Positions 198-9,105 of a stretch of 20,837 bases of DNA are shown piece after piece. The stretch lies in IMG/VR virus record IMGVR_UViG_3300047312_000390, positions 1 through 20,837 of that record; one strand, written 5' to 3'. How positions within the stretch are numbered: the first letter of the stretch is position 1; every line of letters starts with the position of its first letter. A program made the position numbers and the translations under genes. A model generated the notes under the pieces. The model did not search any database and had not been told where the DNA came from. It worked only from the letters and a program-made list of their open reading frames with translations. The DNA comes from a virus.

Positions 198-271
198 GGT
201 GCTGTAGCTCAGTTGGTAAGAGCGCCCGCCTGAAAAGCGGGAGGTCGGTGTGTCGAGTACACCCGGCACCA
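198..271 (+). tRNA. tRNA-Phe (GAA)
   Basis: The acceptor GGTGCTG/CGGCACC pairs with one G-T, and the discriminator is A. The anticodon arm is CCCGC-CTGAAAA-GCGGG. The T arm is GGTGT-GTCGAGT-ACACC, with G in place of the usual T at the first loop position. CCA is not encoded. Confidence 0.9.
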
Positions 272-273
272 CG

Positions 274-293
274 ATGAGGGTCGCGACCCTCAT
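274..293. repeat. perfect 20-bp palindrome
   Basis: ATGAGGGTCG is followed directly by its reverse complement, between tRNA-Phe and a tRNA relic. As RNA or single-stranded DNA it could form a 10-bp hairpin with no loop. As duplex it is a perfect binding site for a dimeric protein. Function unknown. Confidence 0.7.
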
Positions 294-331
294 AAGTCAG
301 GAAGCCACGGGTTCGATTCCCGCCTGGTGGC
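294..331 (+). pseudogene. 3' half of a tRNA
   Basis: A T arm around CGGG-TTCGATT-CCCG is followed by CCTGGTGGCA, a plausible acceptor 3' strand. The upstream bases contain CTCATAA, like a Met anticodon loop, but no 5-bp anticodon stem or D arm can be drawn. The left side runs into the palindrome. Confidence 0.4.
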
Positions 332-349
332 AGGCATCCTGGCGATGAA

Positions 350-431
350 GCCCCGGGGTACGGTGCCGGCACCCTGGGAGCCTGGCCGCAAGCCGGGTGT
401 ACCAGGCTCTGGACCGGCACGGCCCCGGGGC
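350..431 (+). ncRNA. candidate structured RNA: long interrupted hairpin before tRNA-Gly
   Basis: Three nested pairings stack in one hairpin: 350-358 with 423-431 (9 bp, all G-C), 363-369 with 414-420 (7 bp), and 379-385 with 402-408 (7 bp). It ends three bases before tRNA-Gly. No open frame in it looks coding. Function is unknown; it may be a processing signal or part of a longer transcript. Confidence 0.4.
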
Positions 432-434
432 CCT

Positions 435-507
435 GCGGATGAGTCCCAAATGGAAGGGTGCTGGCCCTCCAAGCCAGCTGCTGCGGGTTCGAGTCCCGTC
501 ATCCGCT
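435..507 (+). tRNA. tRNA-Gly (TCC), C33
   Basis: The acceptor GCGGATG/CATCCGC is perfect and the discriminator is T. The anticodon arm is CTGGC-CCTCCAA-GCCAG, so position 33 is C, not T. The T arm is GCGGG-TTCGAGT-CCCGT. CCA is not encoded. Confidence 0.9.
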
Positions 508-620
508 CGATCAAGAGGTACCGGCCGGACGGATAATCCGGATTGGGTGCAAGCGGCTGTCGGGCTGCGGCCGGGCGGGAGGGGGAGGCCGACACCGATC
601 TCCCCCGCGCCGGTTTTCAT
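508..620 (+). other. non-coding spacer with hairpins
   Basis: No gene is seen here. Two hairpins are present: CCGGA/TCCGG at 525-541 with a 7-base loop, and GGGGGAG/CTCCCCC at 581-606 with a 12-base loop. The second is followed by TTTT at 614-617 and could be a weak terminator. Confidence 0.4.
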
Positions 621-692
621 GCTCCGTTAGCTCAGTGGCAGAGCGGTGGGCTCTTAACCCGCGCGTCCGGGGTCCGATTCCCTGACGGAGCA
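621..692 (+). tRNA. tRNA-Lys (CTT)
   Basis: The acceptor GCTCCGT/ACGGAGC is perfect and the discriminator is A. The D arm is GCTC/GAGC and the anticodon arm GTGGG-CTCTTAA-CCCGC. The T arm is CGGGG-TCCGATT-CCCTG, whose loop has TCC where TTC is usual. Confidence 0.9.
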
Positions 693-698
693 CAGCAC

Positions 699-771
699 GG
701 GCGGGTAGGCCAGCGGAAGAGTCAGCCGCCCCAAAAGCGGTAGTGCGTGGGTTCGAATCCCACCTCGCCCA
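699..771 (+). tRNA. tRNA, anticodon CAA by fold (Leu-like, identity uncertain), C33
   Basis: The acceptor GGGCGGG/CTCGCCC has one wobble pair, and the discriminator is A. The anticodon arm is GCCGC-CCCAAAA-GCGGT, so strict pairing gives anticodon CAA with C at 33. CAA means Leu, but the long variable arm of tRNA-Leu is absent (5 bases). Reading CCA (Trp) would need an abnormal 9-base loop. Amino-acid identity is therefore open. Confidence 0.65.
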
Positions 772-778
772 CGCGGAT

Positions 779-862
779 GACACGGCCGTCCTGCGAATCC
801 GTGTCCGGTCCCTCCTTGGGGAGGAACAAGGCCGTCACTCCGGGGGGAGCAAAGACCCCCGG
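779..862 (+). other. three consecutive hairpins in a tRNA spacer
   Basis: GACACGG/CCGTGTC (779-805), CCTCC-ttgg-GGAGG (811-824) and CCGGGGG/CCCCCGG (840-862) follow one another before tRNA-Gln. None is followed by a T run. They may be processing or stability elements. Confidence 0.45.
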
Positions 863-868
863 CGACGA

Positions 869-945
869 TGGGGTATAGGGGAAATGGCAGACCCGCCAGG
901 TTCTGACCCTGGAGTCTCCTGGTTCGAGTCCAGGTACCTCAGCCA
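869..945 (+). tRNA. tRNA-Gln (CTG)
   Basis: The acceptor TGGGGTA/TACCTCA pairs, the discriminator is G and CCA is encoded. The anticodon arm is CCAGG-TTCTGAC-CCTGG. The weak T1-A72 pair and G73 are typical of tRNA-Gln. Confidence 0.93.
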
Positions 946-946
946 T

Positions 947-1022
947 GCCGGTGTAGCTCAGATGGCAGAGCAGCGCTCTCGTAAAGCGACGGTCGGGGGT
1001 TCGATGCCTCTCACCGGCTCCA
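947..1022 (+). tRNA. tRNA-Thr (CGT)
   Basis: The acceptor GCCGGTG/CACCGGC is perfect, the discriminator is T and CCA is encoded. The anticodon arm is CGCT-CTCGTAA-AGCG with a G-A mismatch at the outer pair. Confidence 0.9.
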
Positions 1023-1031
1023 GCAGTACAG

Positions 1032-1117
1032 GTCCGCGTGGCGGAATAGGCATACGCGCTAGCTTGAGGTGCTAGTGCTCCTAGCGGAGCGTGGGAGTTC
1101 AAGTCTCCCCGCGGACA
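1032..1117 (+). tRNA. tRNA-Leu (GAG)
   Basis: This is a class II tRNA with the long variable arm GCTCC-TAGC-GGAGC. The acceptor GTCCGCG/CGCGGAC is perfect and the discriminator is A. The anticodon arm is CTAGC-TTGAGGT-GCTAG. CCA is not encoded. Confidence 0.93.
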
Positions 1118-1151
1118 CATGGCGGATTCCCGGTCACCGGGTCACGGCACC

Positions 1152-1198
1152 GCCGGGGTAGCGCCCGGCAGCCGGCGCGCGGAGCGCTACCTCCGCGC
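1152..1198 (+). ncRNA. candidate kissing-loop RNA: two hairpins with complementary loops
   Basis: Hairpin 1 is GCCGGG-GTAGCG-CCCGGC (1152-1169). Hairpin 2 is GCGCGGAG-CGCTAC-CTCCGCGC (1177-1198). The two 6-base loops are perfect reverse complements and could form a kissing complex. Alternatively 1157-1164 can pair with 1184-1191 over 8 bp, excluding both hairpins. A third hairpin (CCCGG-tca-CCGGG) lies just upstream near 1131. Function unknown. Confidence 0.45.
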
Positions 1199-1226
1199 TC
1201 GGACCTGATGGCCGGGGCCGCCGCGA

Positions 1227-1299
1227 TGGGGGTTAGCTCAATGGGCCGAGCAGCGGCTTTTGGTGCCGCGGGATCGGGGTTCGAGTCCCTGGCCCCCAG
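1227..1299 (+). tRNA. tRNA-Gln (TTG)
   Basis: The acceptor TGGGGGT/GCCCCCA pairs and the discriminator is G. The anticodon arm is GCGGC-TTTTGGT-GCCGC and the T arm CGGGG-TTCGAGT-CCCTG. With the Gln(CTG) gene it covers both Gln codons. Confidence 0.93.
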
Positions 1300-1343
1300 C
1301 TCTAATGCCGGATGTCCGTGATCGTCCGGCTTCCGGCGGAGAT

Positions 1344-1379
1344 TTCCTGTCAGGAATCGTCAGGAATCGTCAGGATGGC
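1344..1379 (+). repeat. tandem 10-base repeats (TCAGGAATCG) upstream of the endonuclease gene
   Basis: TCAGGAATCG occurs at 1350 and 1360, and a partial copy TCAGGATGGC follows at 1370. TCAGGAT appears again near 1433, just before the gene start. The first copy overlaps a dyad TTCCTG-T-CAGGAA. Spacing of one helical turn suggests binding sites for a regulator, perhaps keeping the endonuclease gene quiet. This is an inference. Confidence 0.45.
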
Positions 1380-1450
1380 GACAGATAGGTAAGCAGACGT
1401 GCCCTTCGGACCGGCGTCCGCGTGTCCTTTATCAGGATGTATCGTTAACC

Positions 1451-1858
1451 ATGCATCCTACGCACCTGAAGGGGGACCGAACCGAGGCCATCGTCATGGC
1501 GGCCTTGCTTCAGGTCTATGACAGCGTGCTCGTCCCGTTCGGTAACGGTCGGCGCTATGACCTGGTGGTGGACTCAGACGGCAGGTTCCTGCGCATCCAA
1601 TGCAAGACAGGCCGTCTCCGTAACGGGGTAGTCGTCTTTAACACCGCCAGCCAGGACCCGAGGAACCGCGGTGGCTCAGGCATCAGCTATAGAGGCCAGG
1701 TCGAGCTGTTCGGGGTCTATTGCCCAGACACCCACAAGGTGTATCTGGTTCCTGTCGAGGACGTTGGCCCGAATCATGGTCACCTTCGCCTCGAACCCTC
1801 GCGCAATGGCCACGCGGCTCCGTTGGCTCGAACATACGAAGTAAACACGCCTGCTTAG
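1451..1858 (+). CDS. PD-(D/E)XK endonuclease of the homing type (I-Ssp6803I-like)
   Basis: The 135-residue protein is predicted to cut double-stranded DNA. It matches the single-domain PD-(D/E)XK family that contains I-Ssp6803I, a homing endonuclease encoded in a group I intron of a cyanobacterial tRNA-fMet gene. Visible landmarks are HLKGDRTEA with Glu12, VPFGNGRRYDLVVD with Asp37, and LRIQCK with Gln50 and Lys52, which together make up the family's metal site. A VELFGVYCPDT strand and a VYLVPV strand follow. Here no intron is recognisable. The gene is free-standing between tRNA-Gln and tRNA-Thr, and its last ten bases overlap the 5' end of tRNA-Thr. ATG at 1451 is used because the family match starts about six residues in; the Shine-Dalgarno sequence is poor. 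Its codon use is less GC-biased than the head genes, which suggests separate arrival. Fold and family are fairly sure; the DNA target is unknown. Confidence 0.85.
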   Translation: MHPTHLKGDRTEAIVMAALLQVYDSVLVPFGNGRRYDLVVDSDGRFLRIQCKTGRLRNGVVVFNTASQDPRNRGGSGISYRGQVELFGVYCPDTHKVYLVPVEDVGPNHGHLRLEPSRNGHAAPLARTYEVNTPA

Positions 1859-1920
1859 TAGCAGTGGCAGCACCCCGTCTCGGTAAGGCGGTAGCCGGAG
1901 TTCGATTCTCCGAGCAGGCT
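1849..1920 (+). tRNA. tRNA-Thr (GGT), C33, overlaps upstream gene
   Basis: The acceptor GCCTGCT/AGCAGGC is perfect and the discriminator is T. The anticodon arm is CCGTC-TCGGTAA-GGCGG, giving GGT with bases 32-33 as TC instead of the usual CT. The D stem needs a bulged A. The first ten bases are also the end of the endonuclease gene, including its stop codon. Confidence 0.75.
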
Positions 1921-1923
1921 CAA

Positions 1924-1984
1924 GGCCCGCAAGGGCCGTTCCCGCCTCCGGGCGGATGTGCGGTGTAAGTCCTGGCCGACCAGG
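1924..1984 (+). other. three hairpins between tRNA-Thr and tRNA-Gly
   Basis: GGCCC-gcaa-GGGCC (1924-1937), CCGCC-tccg-GGCGG (1942-1955) and CCTGG-ccga-CCAGG (1971-1984) all have 5-bp stems and four-base loops. The first is followed only by GTT, so a terminator role is doubtful. Confidence 0.4.
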
Positions 1985-1996
1985 CCAGGCGTCCAT

Positions 1997-2073
1997 GCGG
2001 ACGTGGCTCAGTCGGTTACGGCGCCACGTTGCCAACGTGGAGATCGCGAGTTCGAATCTCGCCGTCCGCACCA
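1997..2073 (+). tRNA. tRNA-Gly (GCC)
   Basis: The acceptor GCGGACG/CGTCCGC is perfect and ACCA is encoded. The anticodon arm is CCACG-TTGCCAA-CGTGG and the T arm GCGAG-TTCGAAT-CTCGC. The D stem is weak because the 3' strand reads ACGGC where GAGC is expected. Confidence 0.9.
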
Positions 2074-2080
2074 GTAACAA

Positions 2081-2163
2081 GCGCTTGTGGCGAAACGGCA
2101 TACGCGCACGGTTCAGGTCCGTGTGCCCGCGAGGGCGTGAGGGTTCAAGTCCCTCCGAGCGCA
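2081..2163 (+). tRNA. tRNA-Leu (CAG)
   Basis: Class II tRNA. The acceptor is GCGCTTG/CGAGCGC, the anticodon arm CACGG-TTCAGGT-CCGTG and the long variable arm GCCC-GCGA-GGGC. The discriminator is A. Confidence 0.93.
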
Positions 2164-2173
2164 CGCAGTACAC

Positions 2174-2258
2174 GGAGAGCGAACCGGTCAGGTGACCGGG
2201 CCTCGCTGCTAACGAGAGCGCGGCTTCGCGCCGTGGCGTTCGAGTCGTCCGCTCTCCT
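2174..2258 (+). tRNA. tRNA-Ser (GCT)
   Basis: The acceptor GGAGAGC/GCTCTCC is perfect. The anticodon arm is CTCG-CTGCTAA-CGAG, and a long variable arm containing GCGGCTTCGCGCC is present. The T stem is only four pairs. The 3' end reads CCG instead of CCA. Confidence 0.88.
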
Positions 2259-2260
2259 CC

Positions 2261-2347
2261 GGAAGGTACGCACCCGGCGGTGCAGCTGGTCCCGAAAACC
2301 AGCGGCGGTCGCGAGGCCGTGGGGCTCGACACCTCTACCTTCCTCCA
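2261..2347 (+). tRNA. tRNA-Ser (CGA), C33, odd D arm
   Basis: The acceptor GGAAGGT/ACCTTCC is perfect and TCCA is encoded. The anticodon arm is CTGGT-CCCGAAA-ACCAG, with C at 33. A long variable arm is present. The D arm is a tight hairpin, GCACC-CGGC-GGTGC, without a normal D loop. The T loop CTCGACA starts with C. Confidence 0.8.
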
Positions 2348-2348
2348 A

Positions 2349-2424
2349 GGGCAGGCAGCTCAGGGGTTCGAGCAGCTGGCTGATATCCAGAAGGGCGATG
2401 GTTCGATTCCATCCCTGCCCACCA
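2349..2424 (+). tRNA. tRNA-Ile (GAT)
   Basis: The acceptor GGGCAGG/CCTGCCC is perfect and ACCA is encoded. The anticodon arm is CTGG-CTGATAT-CCAG with a G-A mismatch at the outer pair. The T arm is GATGG-TTCGATT-CCATC. Confidence 0.9.
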
Positions 2425-2425
2425 C

Positions 2426-2498
2426 GGCGGTATAGCTCAGCTGGCAGAGCGCCTGGCCCATAACCAGGAGGCCGGGGGGTCGGAACCCTCTACCGCTA
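2426..2498 (+). tRNA. tRNA-Met (CAT, elongator type), C33
   Basis: The acceptor GGCGGTA/TACCGCT pairs with a G-T at the end. The anticodon arm is CCTGG-CCCATAA-CCAGG, with C at 33. The T loop reads TCGGAAC where TTCGAAC is expected. It lacks initiator features. Modification to read Ile ATA cannot be excluded from sequence. Confidence 0.8.
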
Positions 2499-2502
2499 CT
2501 CA

Positions 2503-2579
2503 GGGCCAGTAGCTCAGCCGGACAGAGCGGCTGCCTTCTAAGCAGCGGGTCGCGGGTTCGAATCCCTCCGGGCGCACCA
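2503..2579 (+). tRNA. tRNA-Arg (TCT), acceptor stem with mismatches
   Basis: The anticodon arm GCTGC-CTTCTAA-GCAGC is perfect and ACCA is encoded. The acceptor GGGCCAG against CGGGCGC has two mismatches, and the T stem has one. It may be decaying. Confidence 0.75.
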
Positions 2580-2588
2580 GTAACAAAA

Positions 2589-2608
2589 CATCCGTCAGCT
2601 GACGGATG
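2589..2608. repeat. perfect 20-bp palindrome
   Basis: CATCCGTCAG is followed by its own reverse complement, preceded by AAAA. A second hairpin, AGTCGCCT-cggc-AGGTGACT, lies at 2621-2640. Both fill the gap between tRNA-Arg and tRNA-Glu. There is no T run, so a terminator in the + direction is unlikely. Read on the other strand the palindrome is followed by TTTTG, which fits a terminator for leftward transcription. Confidence 0.6.
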
Positions 2609-2650
2609 GTCCTGTGGATAAGTCGCCTCGGCAGGTGACTGGTTTAACAT

Positions 2651-2725
2651 GGTCCTGTCGTCTAGTCAGGCTCAGGATGCCGGCCTCTCAAGTCGGTGAC
2701 GCGGGTTCGAAGCCCGCCGGGACCA
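2651..2725 (+). tRNA. tRNA-Glu (CTC)
   Basis: The acceptor GGTCCTG/CGGGACC has one wobble pair, and the discriminator is A. The anticodon arm is CCGGC-CTCTCAA-GTCGG and the T arm GCGGG-TTCGAAG-CCCGC. Confidence 0.92.
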
Positions 2726-2735
2726 CGTAGTGCAA

Positions 2736-2806
2736 GGCCCTATCGTCTATGGGTAGGATCGCTGCCCTTCAAGCAGCTGGACAGAGTTCGAGCCTCTGTA
2801 GGGCCA
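2736..2806 (+). tRNA. tRNA-Glu (TTC), C33
   Basis: The acceptor GGCCCTA/TAGGGCC is perfect and the discriminator is A. The anticodon arm is GCTGC-CCTTCAA-GCAGC, with C at 33 where the Glu(CTC) gene just upstream has T. The T arm is CAGAG-TTCGAGC-CTCTG. Confidence 0.9.
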
Positions 2807-2836
2807 CGAGGTACCGGCTAGGCTGGTGCCATACGA

Positions 2837-2913
2837 CGCGGGGTGGAGCAGTTCGGTAGCTCGCTGGGCTCATAACCCAGAGGCCGCGGGTTCAAATCCC
2901 GCCCCCGCTACCA
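2837..2913 (+). tRNA. initiator tRNA-fMet (CAT)
   Basis: The bacterial initiator features are all present. C1 faces T72, an unpaired first position. The anticodon stem ends in three G-C pairs, CTGGG-CTCATAA-CCCAG. The body beginning CGCGGGGTGGAGCAG is nearly identical to other initiator tRNAs. The T arm is GCGGG-TTCAAAT-CCCGC and ACCA is encoded. Confidence 0.93.
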
Positions 2914-2914
2914 A

Positions 2915-2987
2915 TCCGGTATCCGTTAATTCGGTAAACGAGCAGGTTGTTACCCTGTCCCTCTTGGTTCGAGTCCAAGTACCGGAG
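2915..2987 (+). tRNA. tRNA-Asn (GTT)
   Basis: The acceptor TCCGGTA/TACCGGA is perfect and the discriminator is G. The anticodon arm is GCAGG-TTGTTAC-CCTGT and the T arm CTTGG-TTCGAGT-CCAAG. It starts two bases after the CCA end of the initiator tRNA. Confidence 0.9.
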
Positions 2988-3093
2988 CGCGTGGGCCTGG
3001 GGCCCGTGAGGTACAGCCGGGACGTACGCCCGGCCCGGGCCCCGCTGGGCGGAGCTGCCGCCATACCCAGGGAGCGGGAGGTGCCCCGCACAA

Positions 3094-3168
3094 GGACCAG
3101 TGGAGCAGCTTGGAGTGCTCGTCTCCCCGTCAAGGAGAAGGACGCGGGTTCAAATCCCGTCTGGCCCG
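3094..3168 (+). tRNA. tRNA-Asp (GTC), C33
   Basis: The anticodon arm is TCTCC-CCGTCAA-GGAGA, with C at 33. The acceptor GGACCAG/CTGGCCC has one A-C mismatch, and the discriminator is G, as expected for Asp. The T arm is GCGGG-TTCAAAT-CCCGT. The hairpin GCCGGG/CCCGGC (3016-3034) lies in the spacer before it. Confidence 0.85.
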
Positions 3169-3169
3169 C

Positions 3170-3370
3170 TCAGAAGATCCCCCAGCCGCCCTGCCTGGAC
3201 CGGGCCCGGCGCATCCGCTCGGTCCGCTCGAAGGCACCGAGCTGGTTGAAGCCCCAGGCCCGGCCGGCCCGCAGGCCGAGGATGATGCCGACGCCGAGCA
3301 CGGCCGCCACCCAGGGCAGGCCCGCTTTGGTCAGGATGAGGACGGCACCGATGCCGAGGATGACCCGCAT
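3170..3370 (-). CDS. small two-segment membrane protein, opposite strand
   Basis: This is the only protein gene on the minus strand that I accept. It encodes 66 residues. Residues 2-14 and 17-34 are strongly hydrophobic (ILGIGAVLIL, then WVAAVLGVGIILGL) and are separated by a short K-A-G-L-P turn. The tail, residues 35-66, is rich in Arg and ends GGWGIF. Nearly every codon ends in G or C, as in the head genes, and this is the main reason for accepting it. It fits exactly between tRNA-Asp and tRNA-Val. No clear Shine-Dalgarno sequence precedes the ATG. Size and layout would suit a small holin-like or superinfection-type membrane protein, but no family is recognised and the role is unknown. Confidence 0.65.
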   Translation of the reverse strand: MRVILGIGAVLILTKAGLPWVAAVLGVGIILGLRAGRAWGFNQLGAFERTERMRRARSRQGGWGIF

Positions 3371-3406
3371 GACACAGACGGTACATACCCGGTAACAGTT
3401 TGACCA

Positions 3407-3478
3407 GGGCGGGTGGCGCAGCGGGAGCGCGCTTCCCCGACAAGGAAGAGGACGCCAGTTCAATCCTGGCCCCGCCCA
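3407..3478 (+). tRNA. tRNA-Val (GAC), C33
   Basis: The acceptor GGGCGGG/CCCGCCC is perfect and the discriminator is A. The D arm is GCGC/GCGC and the anticodon arm CTTCC-CCGACAA-GGAAG, with C at 33. The T arm is GCCAG-TTCAATC-CTGGC. Confidence 0.9.
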
Positions 3479-3481
3479 CGC

Positions 3482-3512
3482 TTGACACCAGCAGTAGCCA
3501 GTAGGTTACTGT
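3482..3512 (+). promoter_or_regulatory. candidate sigma-70-type promoter in front of tRNA-Arg
   Basis: A perfect -35 box TTGACA (3482-3487) is followed after 19 bases by TACTGT (3507-3512), or after 18 by TTACTG. tRNA-Arg(ACG) begins 13 bases after the -10 box, a sensible leader length. It lies just after tRNA-Val, so the array has at least one internal promoter. Confidence 0.5.
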
Positions 3513-3524
3513 AGGCGAGTTCTA

Positions 3525-3597
3525 GCGCTCGCAGCACGACGGATCGTGCATCCGGTTACGAACCGGAAGGGTGGAGGTTCAAGTCCTCCCGAGCGCG
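3525..3597 (+). tRNA. tRNA-Arg (ACG)
   Basis: The acceptor GCGCTCG/CGAGCGC is perfect and the discriminator is G. The D arm is GCAC/GTGC, the anticodon arm TCCGG-TTACGAA-CCGGA and the T arm GGAGG-TTCAAGT-CCTCC. A34 would need deamination to inosine to read all CGN codons expected of it. Confidence 0.93.
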
Positions 3598-3600
3598 CGA

Positions 3601-3665
3601 GACCCCGGTCCTGCGGCGGCGCTGCGGCGCTGAGCCGGCAGATCCGGCTGCCGGGGTCCATTTTT
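3601..3665 (+). terminator. intrinsic terminator after tRNA-Arg
   Basis: GACCCCGG (3601-3608) pairs perfectly with CCGGGGTC (3651-3658), and a five-T run follows at 3661-3665. Inside the stem a second hairpin AGCCGG-cagat-CCGGCT forms, giving a branched structure. Together with the promoter at 3482 it would make tRNA-Arg(ACG) a one-gene unit. Confidence 0.7.
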
Positions 3666-3669
3666 CAAG

Positions 3670-3741
3670 GGGCGCATAGCTCAGCGGCAGAGCGACGCTT
3701 TCACACAGCGAAGGTCGTAGGTTCGATCCCTGCTGCGCCCA
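3670..3741 (+). tRNA. tRNA-Val (CAC)
   Basis: The acceptor GGGCGCA/TGCGCCC is perfect and the discriminator is A. The anticodon arm is CGCT-TTCACAC-AGCG with an A-A mismatch at the outer pair. The T arm is GTAGG-TTCGATC-CCTGC. Confidence 0.9.
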
Positions 3742-3803
3742 CCCGGCGGTAGAGGTTGCCGGCTCCTGTACCCGAACGCCCGGGCGCGACTGGAACCGGA
3801 CAT

Positions 3804-3876
3804 GGTGGTTGTAGCTCAAGGTAGAGCCCGGGGTTGTGAGCCCCGGAGGTGCGGGTCGTACCCGTCGGCCACCCCA
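3804..3876 (+). tRNA. tRNA-His (GTG), short T loop
   Basis: It shows the extra G-1 paired with C73 that is diagnostic of tRNA-His. The acceptor is GTGGTTG/CGGCCAC and CCA is encoded. The anticodon arm is CGGGG-TTGTGAG-CCCCG. The T arm GCGGG-TCGTA-CCCGT has a loop of only five bases, so folding or processing may be impaired. The spacer 3742-3803 before it holds only small G-C dyads. Confidence 0.8.
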
Positions 3877-3960
3877 GGCGGAAGTGAGCGCCGGCGCGCT
3901 CCGCGGTCTGTAAAACCGTCGTCCTCAGGGACAAGCCAGGGTCGGCACCTGGTTCCGCCA
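3877..3960 (+). tRNA. tRNA-Tyr (GTA)
   Basis: Class II tRNA with a long variable arm. The acceptor GGCGGAA/TTCCGCC is perfect and the discriminator is A. The anticodon arm is GCGGT-CTGTAAA-ACCGT. The T loop GTCGGCA is unusual. It begins on the base after the CCA of tRNA-His, so the two must be cut from one transcript. Confidence 0.88.
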
Positions 3961-3962
3961 CT

Positions 3963-4036
3963 GACCCCATAGCTCAGCGGACAGAGCACCGCCCTCCGGA
4001 GGCGGGTTGTCGCAGGTTCGATTCCTGCTGGGGCCA
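3963..4036 (+). tRNA. tRNA-Arg (CCG)
   Basis: The acceptor GACCCCA/TGGGGCC has one A-C mismatch. The anticodon arm is CCGCC-CTCCGGA-GGCGG and the T arm GCAGG-TTCGATT-CCTGC. The discriminator is A. Confidence 0.88.
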
Positions 4037-4047
4037 CGTACGATAAT

Positions 4048-4122
4048 GGCGGGGTGTCCGAGCTGGTCAGGTGGGCGCCTGCAAAGCGCTCTACACGGGT
4101 TCGAGTCCCGTCTCCGCCTCCA
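4048..4122 (+). tRNA. tRNA-Cys (GCA)
   Basis: The acceptor GGCGGGG/CTCCGCC pairs with one wobble, and TCCA is encoded. The anticodon arm is GGCGC-CTGCAAA-GCGCT and the T arm ACGGG-TTCGAGT-CCCGT. Confidence 0.9.
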
Positions 4123-4123
4123 C

Positions 4124-4200
4124 GGCCCCGTACCGTCAACGGATAGACCCAGGGCCTCCTAAGCCCTGTCGTGCAGGTTCGAGTCCTGCCGGGGTCACCA
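4124..4200 (+). tRNA. tRNA-Arg (CCT)
   Basis: The acceptor GGCCCCG/CGGGGTC pairs with one wobble and ACCA is encoded. The anticodon arm is AGGGC-CTCCTAA-GCCCT and the T arm GCAGG-TTCGAGT-CCTGC. This is the last gene of the array and the fourth Arg isoacceptor. Confidence 0.92.
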
Positions 4201-4636: not shown

Positions 4637-6271
4637 GTGACCACCCCAGGAGGCGGGCAGGGCGTCCCGTACAGCTCGAACACCCAGCCGCCCGGCGGCA
4701 TGGGCGTGACGAGCCAGGGCTACGGCCAGGAAGGTTATCTCCTGGCCGAGGACCAGGAGCTGCCCAAGCCGCCTCCCGAGGCGCAGGACTTCGCGGTCGG
4801 CGTTCCGTACTTCCTCCCGTTCAGCGTCCCGTACCGGGATTCCTGGGAGGTGTTCCGTGATGACCCGATCTCAGTCCGCCAGCTGGTCACCATGCGCCGC
4901 CGGGACGGCCAGGCCCGCGCGCTGTACCGGCTGCTGACCAAGCCGCTGCTGGCCGCCATGGCCAACGCCGACGTGGTGCCGGCGGACGGGATCGAGGGCG
5001 GGCTGGAGGAGGCCCAGTTCTGCAAGGAGCTGCTGTTCGCGCCCAAGCAGATGGGCGGGATGACCCACTCGTTCAGCCGGTTCCTCAAGCAGATGCTGCT
5101 GGCATTGTTCAATGGCTTCTCGGCCTGGGAACTTGTCTACCACGTCCCGACCAAGGGGCCGAATAAGGGCAAGATCACCCTGCGGAAGATGGACTGGCGC
5201 CCGGCTGAGACGCTGACGTTCCTGCTCGACGGGCAGGGCGAGTTTAACGGCTTCCGGCAGCGGACCTTTTTCCAGGGCCGGACGATTGACGTCAAGATCC
5301 CCCGGGAAACCGCGCTCTATTACGCGCACGAAGAGGCCGAGCGGCCTTTCTACGGCGTGTCCATGTTCGAGAGCGCCTTCTACCACTACGACAAGAAGGA
5401 GAAGCTCTACTACATCGCCCACCTGGCGGCGCAGCGGGCGGCCTGCGGCCTGCGGGTCGGCACCATGGTGCCGAACGCCCCGGCCGAGGACAAGAACAAC
5501 TTCATCAAGGCGCTGAGTCAGCTGGGCCTGGCGCAGTGGATCGCGCTGCCCACCGCGGACTGGACGGTCGAGACGCTGAATGAGTCGGCGAGCCGGTTCG
5601 ATTTCCTCGGCCTGATCAACCACCACAATTCGCAGATGTCCAAGTCGGTGCTCGCGCAGTGGTTCGATGACTCGCAGGGCGGCGGCGGCGGCGACTCCAC
5701 GCTGGTTGATTTCGGGAAGCAGGATGACGTCACGTTCTTCCTGATGCTGGAAGGCATCCTGGAGGAAATGGCGGAGATCATCAACACGCATATCTTCCCG
5801 CGGTTCGTGGACTGGAATTTCGGCAGCGAGAAGTACCCCGAGTTCAAGTGGGGCCCGCTGACCGAGGAGGCCAAGGCCGCCATCCAGGACACGTTCGACA
5901 AGCTGGCCGCCGCCGGGCAGCAGGCGAACGTCACGCCCGAGTTCATGCTGGAGCTGGAGGAGCGGCTGGCCCAGGACTTCGGTTTCGCCATCGACTACGA
6001 CAAGATCAAGGCCCAGCGGGAGAAGCAGCAGCGGCTGATGCAGCAGCAGATGGCGGCCCAGACCCAGGCGATGGCGATGCAGCCCCAGCCCGGCGCCGCC
6101 GGGGCGGGCGGGGCCGCGGGCCAGCCTCCGCAGCCTCCGCCGCCGGCCCCGTTCCCGCCCGCCGGGTTCGGCCCGCCGGGCAGTGACGGGCCGCCGAAGC
6201 CTGCCGGCGGGCCCGGCCTGGGCGGCGGCCGCGGGCCCGGCGCTCCCGGGTTGCAGGGGCGCGGATCGTGA
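4637..6271 (+). CDS. portal protein (Mu gp29-like / DUF935 type)
   Basis: The 544-residue protein forms the dodecameric ring at the capsid vertex through which DNA is packaged and ejected. The core (about residues 55-440) shows family features: LFNGFSAWELVYHVP, then KMDWRPAETLTFLLD, then IPRETALYYAHEEAERPFYGVSMFESAF, a following helix KKEKLYYIAHLAAQRAA, and a region with LAQWFDDSQGGGGGDS. The C-terminal 100 residues change to a Gln-rich helix (EKQQRLMQQQMAAQTQ) and a Pro/Gly-rich tail, which are likely flexible. The GTG start at 4637 follows a CGAT box. A start at the ATG at 4700 is possible but would lose no known domain. The following gene overlaps its stop codon (GTGA), so the two are translationally coupled. 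Confidence 0.85.
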   Translation: MTTPGGGQGVPYSSNTQPPGGMGVTSQGYGQEGYLLAEDQELPKPPPEAQDFAVGVPYFLPFSVPYRDSWEVFRDDPISVRQLVTMRRRDGQARALYRLLTKPLLAAMANADVVPADGIEGGLEEAQFCKELLFAPKQMGGMTHSFSRFLKQMLLALFNGFSAWELVYHVPTKGPNKGKITLRKMDWRPAETLTFLLDGQGEFNGFRQRTFFQGRTIDVKIPRETALYYAHEEAERPFYGVSMFESAFYHYDKKEKLYYIAHLAAQRAACGLRVGTMVPNAPAEDKNNFIKALSQLGLAQWIALPTADWTVETLNESASRFDFLGLINHHNSQMSKSVLAQWFDDSQGGGGGDSTLVDFGKQDDVTFFLMLEGILEEMAEIINTHIFPRFVDWNFGSEKYPEFKWGPLTEEAKAAIQDTFDKLAAAGQQANVTPEFMLELEERLAQDFGFAIDYDKIKAQREKQQRLMQQQMAAQTQAMAMQPQPGAAGAGGAAGQPPQPPPPAPFPPAGFGPPGSDGPPKPAGGPGLGGGRGPGAPGLQGRGS

Positions 6272-8100: not shown

Positions 8101-9105
8101 TTGGACGCTGACCTGCCGGGGAATCCGGCGGGCCCGGATACCCTGCGCTACTTCACCACTGAGCCGGCGGCTTATGCGCTGGCTCTGCTCTTGCTGATGG
8201 AGTACGCCCGCGTGCACCCGCACGCGGACTTCGTGTTCGGGCCGATGAACATGCCGGCCCTGGCGGCCGGCGGGCTGGTGCTGTCCGGCCCGGCCCTGGC
8301 GGGCCCGGCGGCGGTGCTGGCCCGGGTGGAGGGCCTGGCCCAGCATGAGCCCGGAGCCGAGGAGGCCGTAGTAGCCCGGTTAACCGTAGTTGTATGTATG
8401 ACGTTGGCAGAAGCTCCCTCGAAGGAGCATGGGCGGGCAGCAGCATGGGCGGACCCGGCGAAGGTGTTCGACCCCAGAAGTCATGAGGTCCGGCCAGTCC
8501 GGTTCCCGGTTGCTGCCGGCATCATGCGCGCCGGTCACTACACCCAGTCGGGCGGGAAGGTGTCAGCCTTGTGCTTCGGGCTGTTCGACCAGGATGGCTC
8601 GCTTCGCGGGGCGGCCATCTTCGGGCGTCCTTCCGGTCGCCTAGTCGCTCCTTCGCTATGGGCGGGCGGGAACGAGGAAAATACAGCCGAGCTGACGCGT
8701 CTTTATGCTGATGACGACACGGGTTTCAATACCGAGTCGTGGTTCCTGTCACGTTGCATCCGGCAGCTGCCCCGTCAGATCAGGCTGCTGGTGGCGTACT
8801 CCGCGCCAGATGCGGGGCACCACGGAGGATGCTATCAGGCAGCCAACTGGCTATACCTCGGCCCCGGCACCGGAAATTGCCATTACCACTATGTAGACAG
8901 CGCAGGAAATTACGTCAATAAGAGGCGTCCGTGGGACTATTACGCCGCTCGCCCGGAAATCCGCTCAGAGGCCGAAGCTGCTGACTTGCTGGGTCTTGTC
9001 CTGGTGAAGGAACAGCCGAAACACGTTTACGTGCTGCCCAGGGACCGGAGAGCAGCGAGAGCGCTGCTCCGCCCGGTAGTCCCTTACCCGAAACCAGATC
9101 TATGA
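8101..9105 (+). CDS. mom: Mom-like DNA adenine hypermodification protein, with extra N-terminal part
   Basis: The frame encodes 334 residues from TTG 8101, but only residues from about 128 match Mom, the Mu protein that converts adenine to N6-carbamoylmethyl-adenine and so shields phage DNA from restriction. Mom-type landmarks are HYTQSGGKVSALCFGLF, GAAIFGRPS, ELTRLYADDD, TESWFLSRCIRQLP, LLVAYSAPDAGHHGG with CYQAANWLYLG, and the ending LLRPVVPYPKP. The fold is acetyltransferase-like. ATG 8398 (residue 100) would give a complete 235-residue Mom-like protein. Residues 1-95 have the high-GC codon use of the neighbours, while the Mom part uses many A- or T-ending codons. I infer that a mom gene was inserted and now shares a frame with the 5' remnant of an older gene. 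The Mom assignment is confident; the start is not. Confidence 0.8.
   Translation: MDADLPGNPAGPDTLRYFTTEPAAYALALLLLMEYARVHPHADFVFGPMNMPALAAGGLVLSGPALAGPAAVLARVEGLAQHEPGAEEAVVARLTVVVCMTLAEAPSKEHGRAAAWADPAKVFDPRSHEVRPVRFPVAAGIMRAGHYTQSGGKVSALCFGLFDQDGSLRGAAIFGRPSGRLVAPSLWAGGNEENTAELTRLYADDDTGFNTESWFLSRCIRQLPRQIRLLVAYSAPDAGHHGGCYQAANWLYLGPGTGNCHYHYVDSAGNYVNKRRPWDYYAARPEIRSEAEAADLLGLVLVKEQPKHVYVLPRDRRAARALLRPVVPYPKPDL

Follow-up and report, generated by a model that had tools for sequence, protein, structure and literature searches.

Cytidine is found naturally at position 33 of the anticodon loop (C33 in place of U33, the near-universal uridine of the U-turn that gives this loop its shape) in the initiator transfer RNAs (tRNAs) of eukaryotes. 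The role of U33 has been described previously (PMC9023292, PMC5372741), and C33 in an otherwise normal tRNA is also known from tRNA-Cys of the Sulfolobales (PMC7668247) and from supernumerary actinobacterial tRNAs. Among phages, mycobacteriophages of cluster C1 carry large tRNA arrays with anticodon loops unlike those of the host, and the main text of that study ties the changes to particular isoacceptors and to VapC sites (van den Berg et al. 2023, PMC10264068). Phage tRNAs that act as antidotes to the tRNA-cleaving defenses of retrons (PMC11555353) and Septu (PMC13096335) may replace lost host tRNAs. Here, we analyzed a 20.8-kb window of viral DNA (positions 1 to 20,837 of IMG/VR record IMGVR_UViG_3300047312_000390) whose left end is an array of tRNA genes, several with C33, followed by genes for portal, protease, capsid, and other structural proteins. 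The window and its relatives resemble cluster C1 in their large arrays and altered loops and differ from it in that one loop site and one letter pair are affected, across many isoacceptors, in a set that turns over. Whereas the Sulfolobales, initiator, and actinobacterial examples are single cases, C33 is polymorphic over about 27 anticodons in this phage family. Unlike the retron and Septu antidotes, the phages studied here are linked to no defense system, and no mention of C33 was found in the portions of those two reports that were available. A literature search for papers on phage-encoded tRNAs that name U33 returned nothing useful.

The complete tRNAs of the array occupy positions 198 to 4200 (plus strand) of the window, the GC content of which is 68.5%. 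ARAGORN, which may overlook odd tRNA genes, called 27 tRNAs; two that it missed, tRNA-Ser(CGA) and tRNA-Tyr(GUA) (about 3877 to 3959), were matched by the Infernal tRNA-Sec model below its cut-off, for a total of about 29 full-length genes. Anticodon arms were read base by base to assign position 33, which was T in 21 genes, including Tyr(GUA), and C in 8. The seven C33 genes called by ARAGORN, each with an anticodon stem paired at 5 of 5 positions, are tRNA-Gly(UCC) (435 to 508; Rfam tRNA model, 52 bits), a tRNA with a CAA anticodon (699 to 772), tRNA-Thr(GGU) (1849 to 1921), an elongator-type tRNA-Met(CAU) (2426 to 2499), tRNA-Glu(UUC) (2736 to 2807), tRNA-Asp(GUC) (3094 to 3169), and tRNA-Val(GAC) (3407 to 3479). 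The eighth is Ser(CGA) (about 2261 to 2346; tRNA-Sec model, 38.4 bits), in which the anticodon arm reads CTGGT-CC-CGA-AA-ACCAG; all eight have sound anticodon stems and lie on the plus strand. The original prediction, made from the letters of the window alone, had named exactly these eight genes, and it was also correct in stating that seven of them have CC at positions 32 and 33 (Thr(GGU), with TC, is the exception) and that Glu(CUC) and the initiator keep T33.

These readings were repeated in a contig from a different metagenome (L050) that is 99.5% identical to the window over 3.1 kb and has C33 in the same Thr, Met, Glu, Asp, and Val genes. Since five C33 genes recur in this contig, sequencing error is unlikely, and assembly error was rejected as the source of C33. 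L050 additionally carries, between Met and Arg(UCU), a Lys(UUU) gene that has C33 and is absent from the window, and comparison of window positions 2499 to 2651 with positions 1001 to 1231 of L050 indicates that this gene was recently lost from the window array. In a second relative, L034 (96% identity in the portal and about 85% in DNA), the orthologues of Gly(UCC), the CAA tRNA, Asp, and Val(GAC) have C33 in both phages, while position 33 is not the same in the two phages for Gln(UUG), Asn, Val(CAC), Met, and Glu(UUC). As a separate observation, the CAA tRNA was called as tRNA-Leu and lacks the long variable arm of tRNA-Leu in all 11 family members in which it was seen (window positions 699 to 772, L016, L019, L023, L027, L029, L034, L051, L053, L055, and L056).

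The family is defined by the portal protein (4637 to 6271, plus strand; PHROG 113, E 1e-29), with which relatives were fetched from IMG/VR; these are uncultured soil phages with ~30 tRNA genes each. Among 528 distinct family tRNAs, 407 have T33, 120 (23%) have C33, 1 has G33, and none has A33. All 20 records with at least 10 distinct tRNAs carry C33, in 7 to 45% of their tRNAs; C33 is characteristic of the family as a whole. Control viral arrays that were not chosen for C33 displayed it in 34 of 988 tRNAs, with 9 of 584 in arrays of GC below 0.55 and 11 of 265 (4%) in those of GC 0.62 or more; the 8 of 29 in the window had P values of 4e-6 against the overall control rate and 2e-5 against the GC-rich arrays. 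The nearest cultured relative, Magritte (portal 50% identical, GC 0.63), has C33 in 0 of 26 tRNAs. Counts were similarly low in other isolates, namely Wakanda (0/24), GodonK (0/30), Myrna (1/28), Erdmann (2/26), RHph_Y65 (1/20), and RcXuper (2/23), where the C33 genes are Val tRNAs in Erdmann and Myrna and Val and Ile tRNAs in RcXuper.

Bacterial genomes were surveyed by pattern searches for two isoacceptors. Among 84,980 species genomes, the Asp C33 pattern was found in 26 stretches, of which several lay in tRNA arrays or received no tRNA call, and the Val(GAC) pattern gave a T33 match in 230 and a C33 match in one of 297 Actinomycetes genomes. With occurrence near zero in both searches, C33 was rejected as a native bacterial trait. 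A search of plasmids gave no useful result. Two actinobacterial genomes (G254 and G025, loci L306 and L339) carry a short Leu(UAA)-like tRNA with C32 and C33 that lacks the long variable arm, and in G025 additional copies of the Asp and Asn tRNAs also have C33; these tRNAs look like supernumerary, possibly special-purpose copies. Arrays with C33 tRNAs (the group of L061 to L079, L081, L083, L095, and L101) were also present both in phage contigs in which no related portal gene was found and within bacterial assemblies (Rugosimonospora, Leifsonia, an Actinomycetota metagenome-assembled genome [MAG], and a Pirellulales MAG).

The C33 genes otherwise look intact. Among the first 599 family tRNAs, pairing of the acceptor, anticodon, and T stems was equal in C33 and T33 genes, and U8, U54, C56, A58, G53, and C61 were equally kept in both. 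In the window, seven of the eight C33 genes scored above the Rfam cut-off, and individual exceptions include Gly(UCC), which has A8, and Ser(CGA), whose T-arm is weak. As a group, the C33 tRNAs thus display the cloverleaf and near-invariant sites expected of functional elongator tRNAs, with U33 the feature that the eight window genes lack, and not the broken stems and scattered changes at near-invariant sites that mark pseudogenes.

The rate of change at position 33 was evaluated in pairs of close orthologues with no more than 8 differences elsewhere, of which there were 358 in the family and 233 in other arrays; as such pairs share history and are not independent, the switch counts are descriptive rather than tests. 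Site 33 displayed 85 T/C switches and no transversions in the family pairs, spread over at least 12 anticodons, compared to 77 transitions at purine site 57, 52 at site 59, and none at sites 54 and 56. Other arrays had 12 switches at site 33 in 233 pairs, while the rates at sites 57, 59, and 60 were much the same in the family and elsewhere. Site 33 in the family therefore switches as fast as the fastest tRNA sites. A similar, weaker change was seen at U55, the uridine that starts the U-turn of the T-loop. C55 was present in 17 of 507 family tRNAs versus 11 of 1158 elsewhere, and site 55 had 25 T/C switches in the 358 family pairs versus 2 in the 233 pairs from other arrays; C54 and C8 were not significantly enriched in the family. 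Because U55 is also affected, the effect is tied to U-turn uridines and extends beyond the anticodon loop.

The frequency of C33 also depends strongly on the anticodon (heterogeneity chi-square of 116, against a maximum of 72 in 2000 within-phage shuffles). C33 is common in Ser(CGA) (5/6, and in nearly all relatives), Thr(GGU) (8/10), Asn (10/17), Asp (8/17), and also Val, and was never found in Arg(ACG) (0/17), Gly(GCC) (0/14), Ser(GCU) (0/12), Ile(GAU) (0/12), Pro(CGG) (0/12), Phe (0/11), Lys(CUU) (0/10), Leu(GAG) (0/10), or Trp (0/6). Anticodons with C36 were enriched in C33 both in the family (47/146 versus 73/382) and in other arrays (42/284 versus 44/943). An intrinsic ranking of isoacceptors was rejected, since the family and other arrays correlated only weakly (rho of 0.24, P of 0.21), though C36 anticodons were high in both; some types that are free of C33 in the family, such as Gly(GCC) and Ser(GCU), show it in other phages.

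We favor the reading, to which we give just under even odds (about 0.48), that the phage tRNAs are functional and that C has become an acceptable substitute for U33 and, less markedly, for U55, at a cost set by the anticodon. It builds on what was directly observed, namely functional-looking genes, exchange confined to pyrimidines, its speed, its dependence on the anticodon, and its specificity to one clade. The C33 tRNAs would then be charged and take part in decoding, and the exchange would be near neutral rather than selected. A structural reason for the tolerance may be that C33, also a pyrimidine, preserves the contact of the 2'-OH with base 35, while the N3-H bond to phosphate 36 is lost, such that the loop would still form, if less stably. 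Its loss could be tolerable where codon pairing is otherwise strong (C36 and GNN codons) and intolerable where U33 is required by a modification enzyme or for keeping frame, as might hold for Arg(ACG), Phe, and Trp; TadA touches U33 while making I34, which would explain the lack of C33 in Arg(ACG). T/C changes at position 33 would be near neutral in this phage lineage within its host and would accumulate by drift as quickly as at unconstrained sites, so that each phage would hold a different mixture of C33 and T33. Cells can live with C33, as in one actinobacterial genome whose two Val(GAC) genes, each clustered with Gly and Cys tRNAs, both have C33 and in which no T33 Val(GAC) was found.

Several points weigh against this reading. 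GC pressure or weak selection is insufficient to produce the pattern, given 4% C33 in arrays of GC 0.62 or more compared to 23% in the family and none in the 26 Magritte tRNAs. Other near-invariant sites are not relaxed, and a difference specific to the U-turn must therefore be present; as GC-matched phages keep the U-turn requirement, a factor in the host or in phage physiology is implied. In yeast, U33C mutants of tRNA-Gln show a poor-decoding phenotype (PMC3664417).

The explanation put forward in the original prediction, that C33 was selected as an escape from host anticodon-loop nucleases of the VapC, PrrC, or Cas13 type, is possible but on balance doubtful. Enzymes that recognize or cleave at U33 would favor C33 in phage genes, and shifting nuclease repertoires would drive turnover of the C33 set, and fast switching at position 33 is compatible with such an arms race. 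Precedent comes from mycobacteriophage tRNAs, in which anticodon loops are changed at VapC sites, and those phages are described as avoiding Ser(NGA), which VapC cuts, while retaining the uncut Ser(GCU); the main text of that report makes no mention of U33, C33, or position 33, and its supplement may list differences at that position (PMC10264068). The best hint in the present data is parallel: family Ser(NGA) genes called by ARAGORN have C33 in 9 of 14 cases (9 of 12 without two AGA genes), compared to 0 of 13 for untargeted Ser(GCU). Set against this are the T/C switching of U55, which lies outside the anticodon loop, a C33 set that differs between close relatives, and a rate at position 33 that does not clearly exceed that of the least constrained sites. 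Trp and Cys tRNAs are VapC targets in mycobacteria, yet C33 is found in 0 of 6 and 1 of 25 of them, respectively, in the family, and in the mycobacteriophage isolate Erdmann C33 is confined to the two Val tRNAs. The C33 loops do differ from those of actinobacterial Val(GAC) and bacterial Asp, though those bacteria may not be the host. Signs of nuclease attack were sought in the form of tRNA repair, and neither RtcB nor a PF13563 2'-5' RNA ligase was found in eight relatives. The further proposal that the eight cognate tRNAs would predict which host tRNAs are attacked was not supported, because the C33 set changes too quickly to serve as a signature of targets.

It is unlikely that, in this phage and host lineage, U-turns have been specifically freed from the need for uridine, whether through editing of their cytidines to U, modification of these cytidines, or a changed decoding apparatus. 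Were this so, C at 33 and 55 would be free of penalty in about half of the isoacceptors.

A DNA-level explanation, which we consider quite unlikely, is that C33 and C55 allow escape from homing endonucleases that target tRNA genes at the anticodon region (I-Ssp6803I type) or the T-loop (SegB type); a T-to-C change at either site would spoil the cut site while the RNA still tolerated it. SegB of T6 cuts tRNA genes at RAWTSGAAC (PMC13096335), a motif that is the reverse complement of the T-loop. Together with the anticodon-region target of the I-Ssp6803I type, this places sites 33 and 55 both within known endonuclease targets. The window array itself contains a PD-(D/E)XK endonuclease gene (PF11645; 1451 to 1858, plus strand; Pfam, 114 bits), likely encoding a free-standing homing endonuclease, the last 10 bases of which overlap the C33 Thr(GGU) gene. 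Homologues are present in tRNA arrays of unrelated phages, at a different tRNA in each; besides the window, the loci are L034 (7500 to 7835), L013, L133, L129, L348, L350, L352, and L353, and the start of Thr(GGU) is overlapped in L348 as it is in the window. In the first five cases, the co-oriented tRNA downstream of the PF11645 gene had C33 in four, but a prospective check failed, with T33 in all four further loci, and an effect of adjacency is therefore doubtful (4/5 in the first loci, 0/4 in the new ones). Moreover, tRNAs beside intergenic gaps of more than 300 bases were not enriched in C33 (7/29), and this explanation does not predict the dependence on anticodon.

Very unlikely, too, is that a deaminase of the host or the phage converts C33, and C55 with it, to U at the RNA level, leaving the gene letter free, even though strict T/C exchange near free-site speed at U-turn uridines is what silent editing would give. 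CDAT8 of Methanopyrus kandleri edits C8 to U, and many tRNA genes there have C where the RNA needs U; in the present case, only a fraction of tRNAs, in specific isoacceptors, is affected, and no deaminase was found in the phages. PF00383 was absent from the records of ten relatives (eight of them 124 to 152 kb), a search that a divergent fold could escape, and a phage-encoded deaminase was rejected on this basis, although an enzyme of the host could still carry out such editing. Tested bacterial genomes retain T33, and editing leaves the isoacceptors that never show C33 unexplained.

Finally, the idea that unneeded tRNA genes are decaying at random as GC pressure acts on them, for which one might cite the high GC content of the window and array turnover in the form of tRNA fragments and the Lys(UUU) loss relative to L050, is highly improbable and was rejected, as was GC pressure alone: stems and near-invariant sites are as intact as in T33 tRNAs, purines almost never occupy position 33, GC-matched arrays have far less C33 than the family, and the divergent Ser(CGA) and Thr(GGU) genes retain it. 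The view of the original prediction that C33 does not reflect decay is therefore supported, by this integrity and by recurrence across the phage family.

Other features of the window were recorded alongside. Positions 1 to 197 and 273 to 330 contain tRNA fragments or tRNA-like pieces, and positions 52 to 115 and 123 to 191 gave sub-threshold matches to the Y-RNA-like family YrlA. A Ro/Y-RNA system was considered and rejected, as these matches fell below threshold and no TROVE protein was found in ten relatives; a Ro-like protein is encoded beside the tRNA array of the isolate Magritte. A Mom-like DNA modification protein (PF25680) is encoded at positions 8101 to 9105, between head genes.

Few letters of tRNA are as conserved as U33, and debate on what it does in decoding still draws on a handful of mutants. 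In this phage family, a position regarded as almost untouchable carries C in roughly a quarter of otherwise intact tRNAs and, switching to and fro between close relatives, looks freely exchangeable. Natural U33/C33 pairs in more than 20 isoacceptors provide a natural experiment on the purpose of U33 and on the anticodons that need it, and the existence of cultured phages with C33 (Erdmann, Myrna, and RcXuper) makes these questions testable now. The family could thereby show whether translation, tRNA-cutting defenses, or DNA endonucleases shape the tRNAs of phages.

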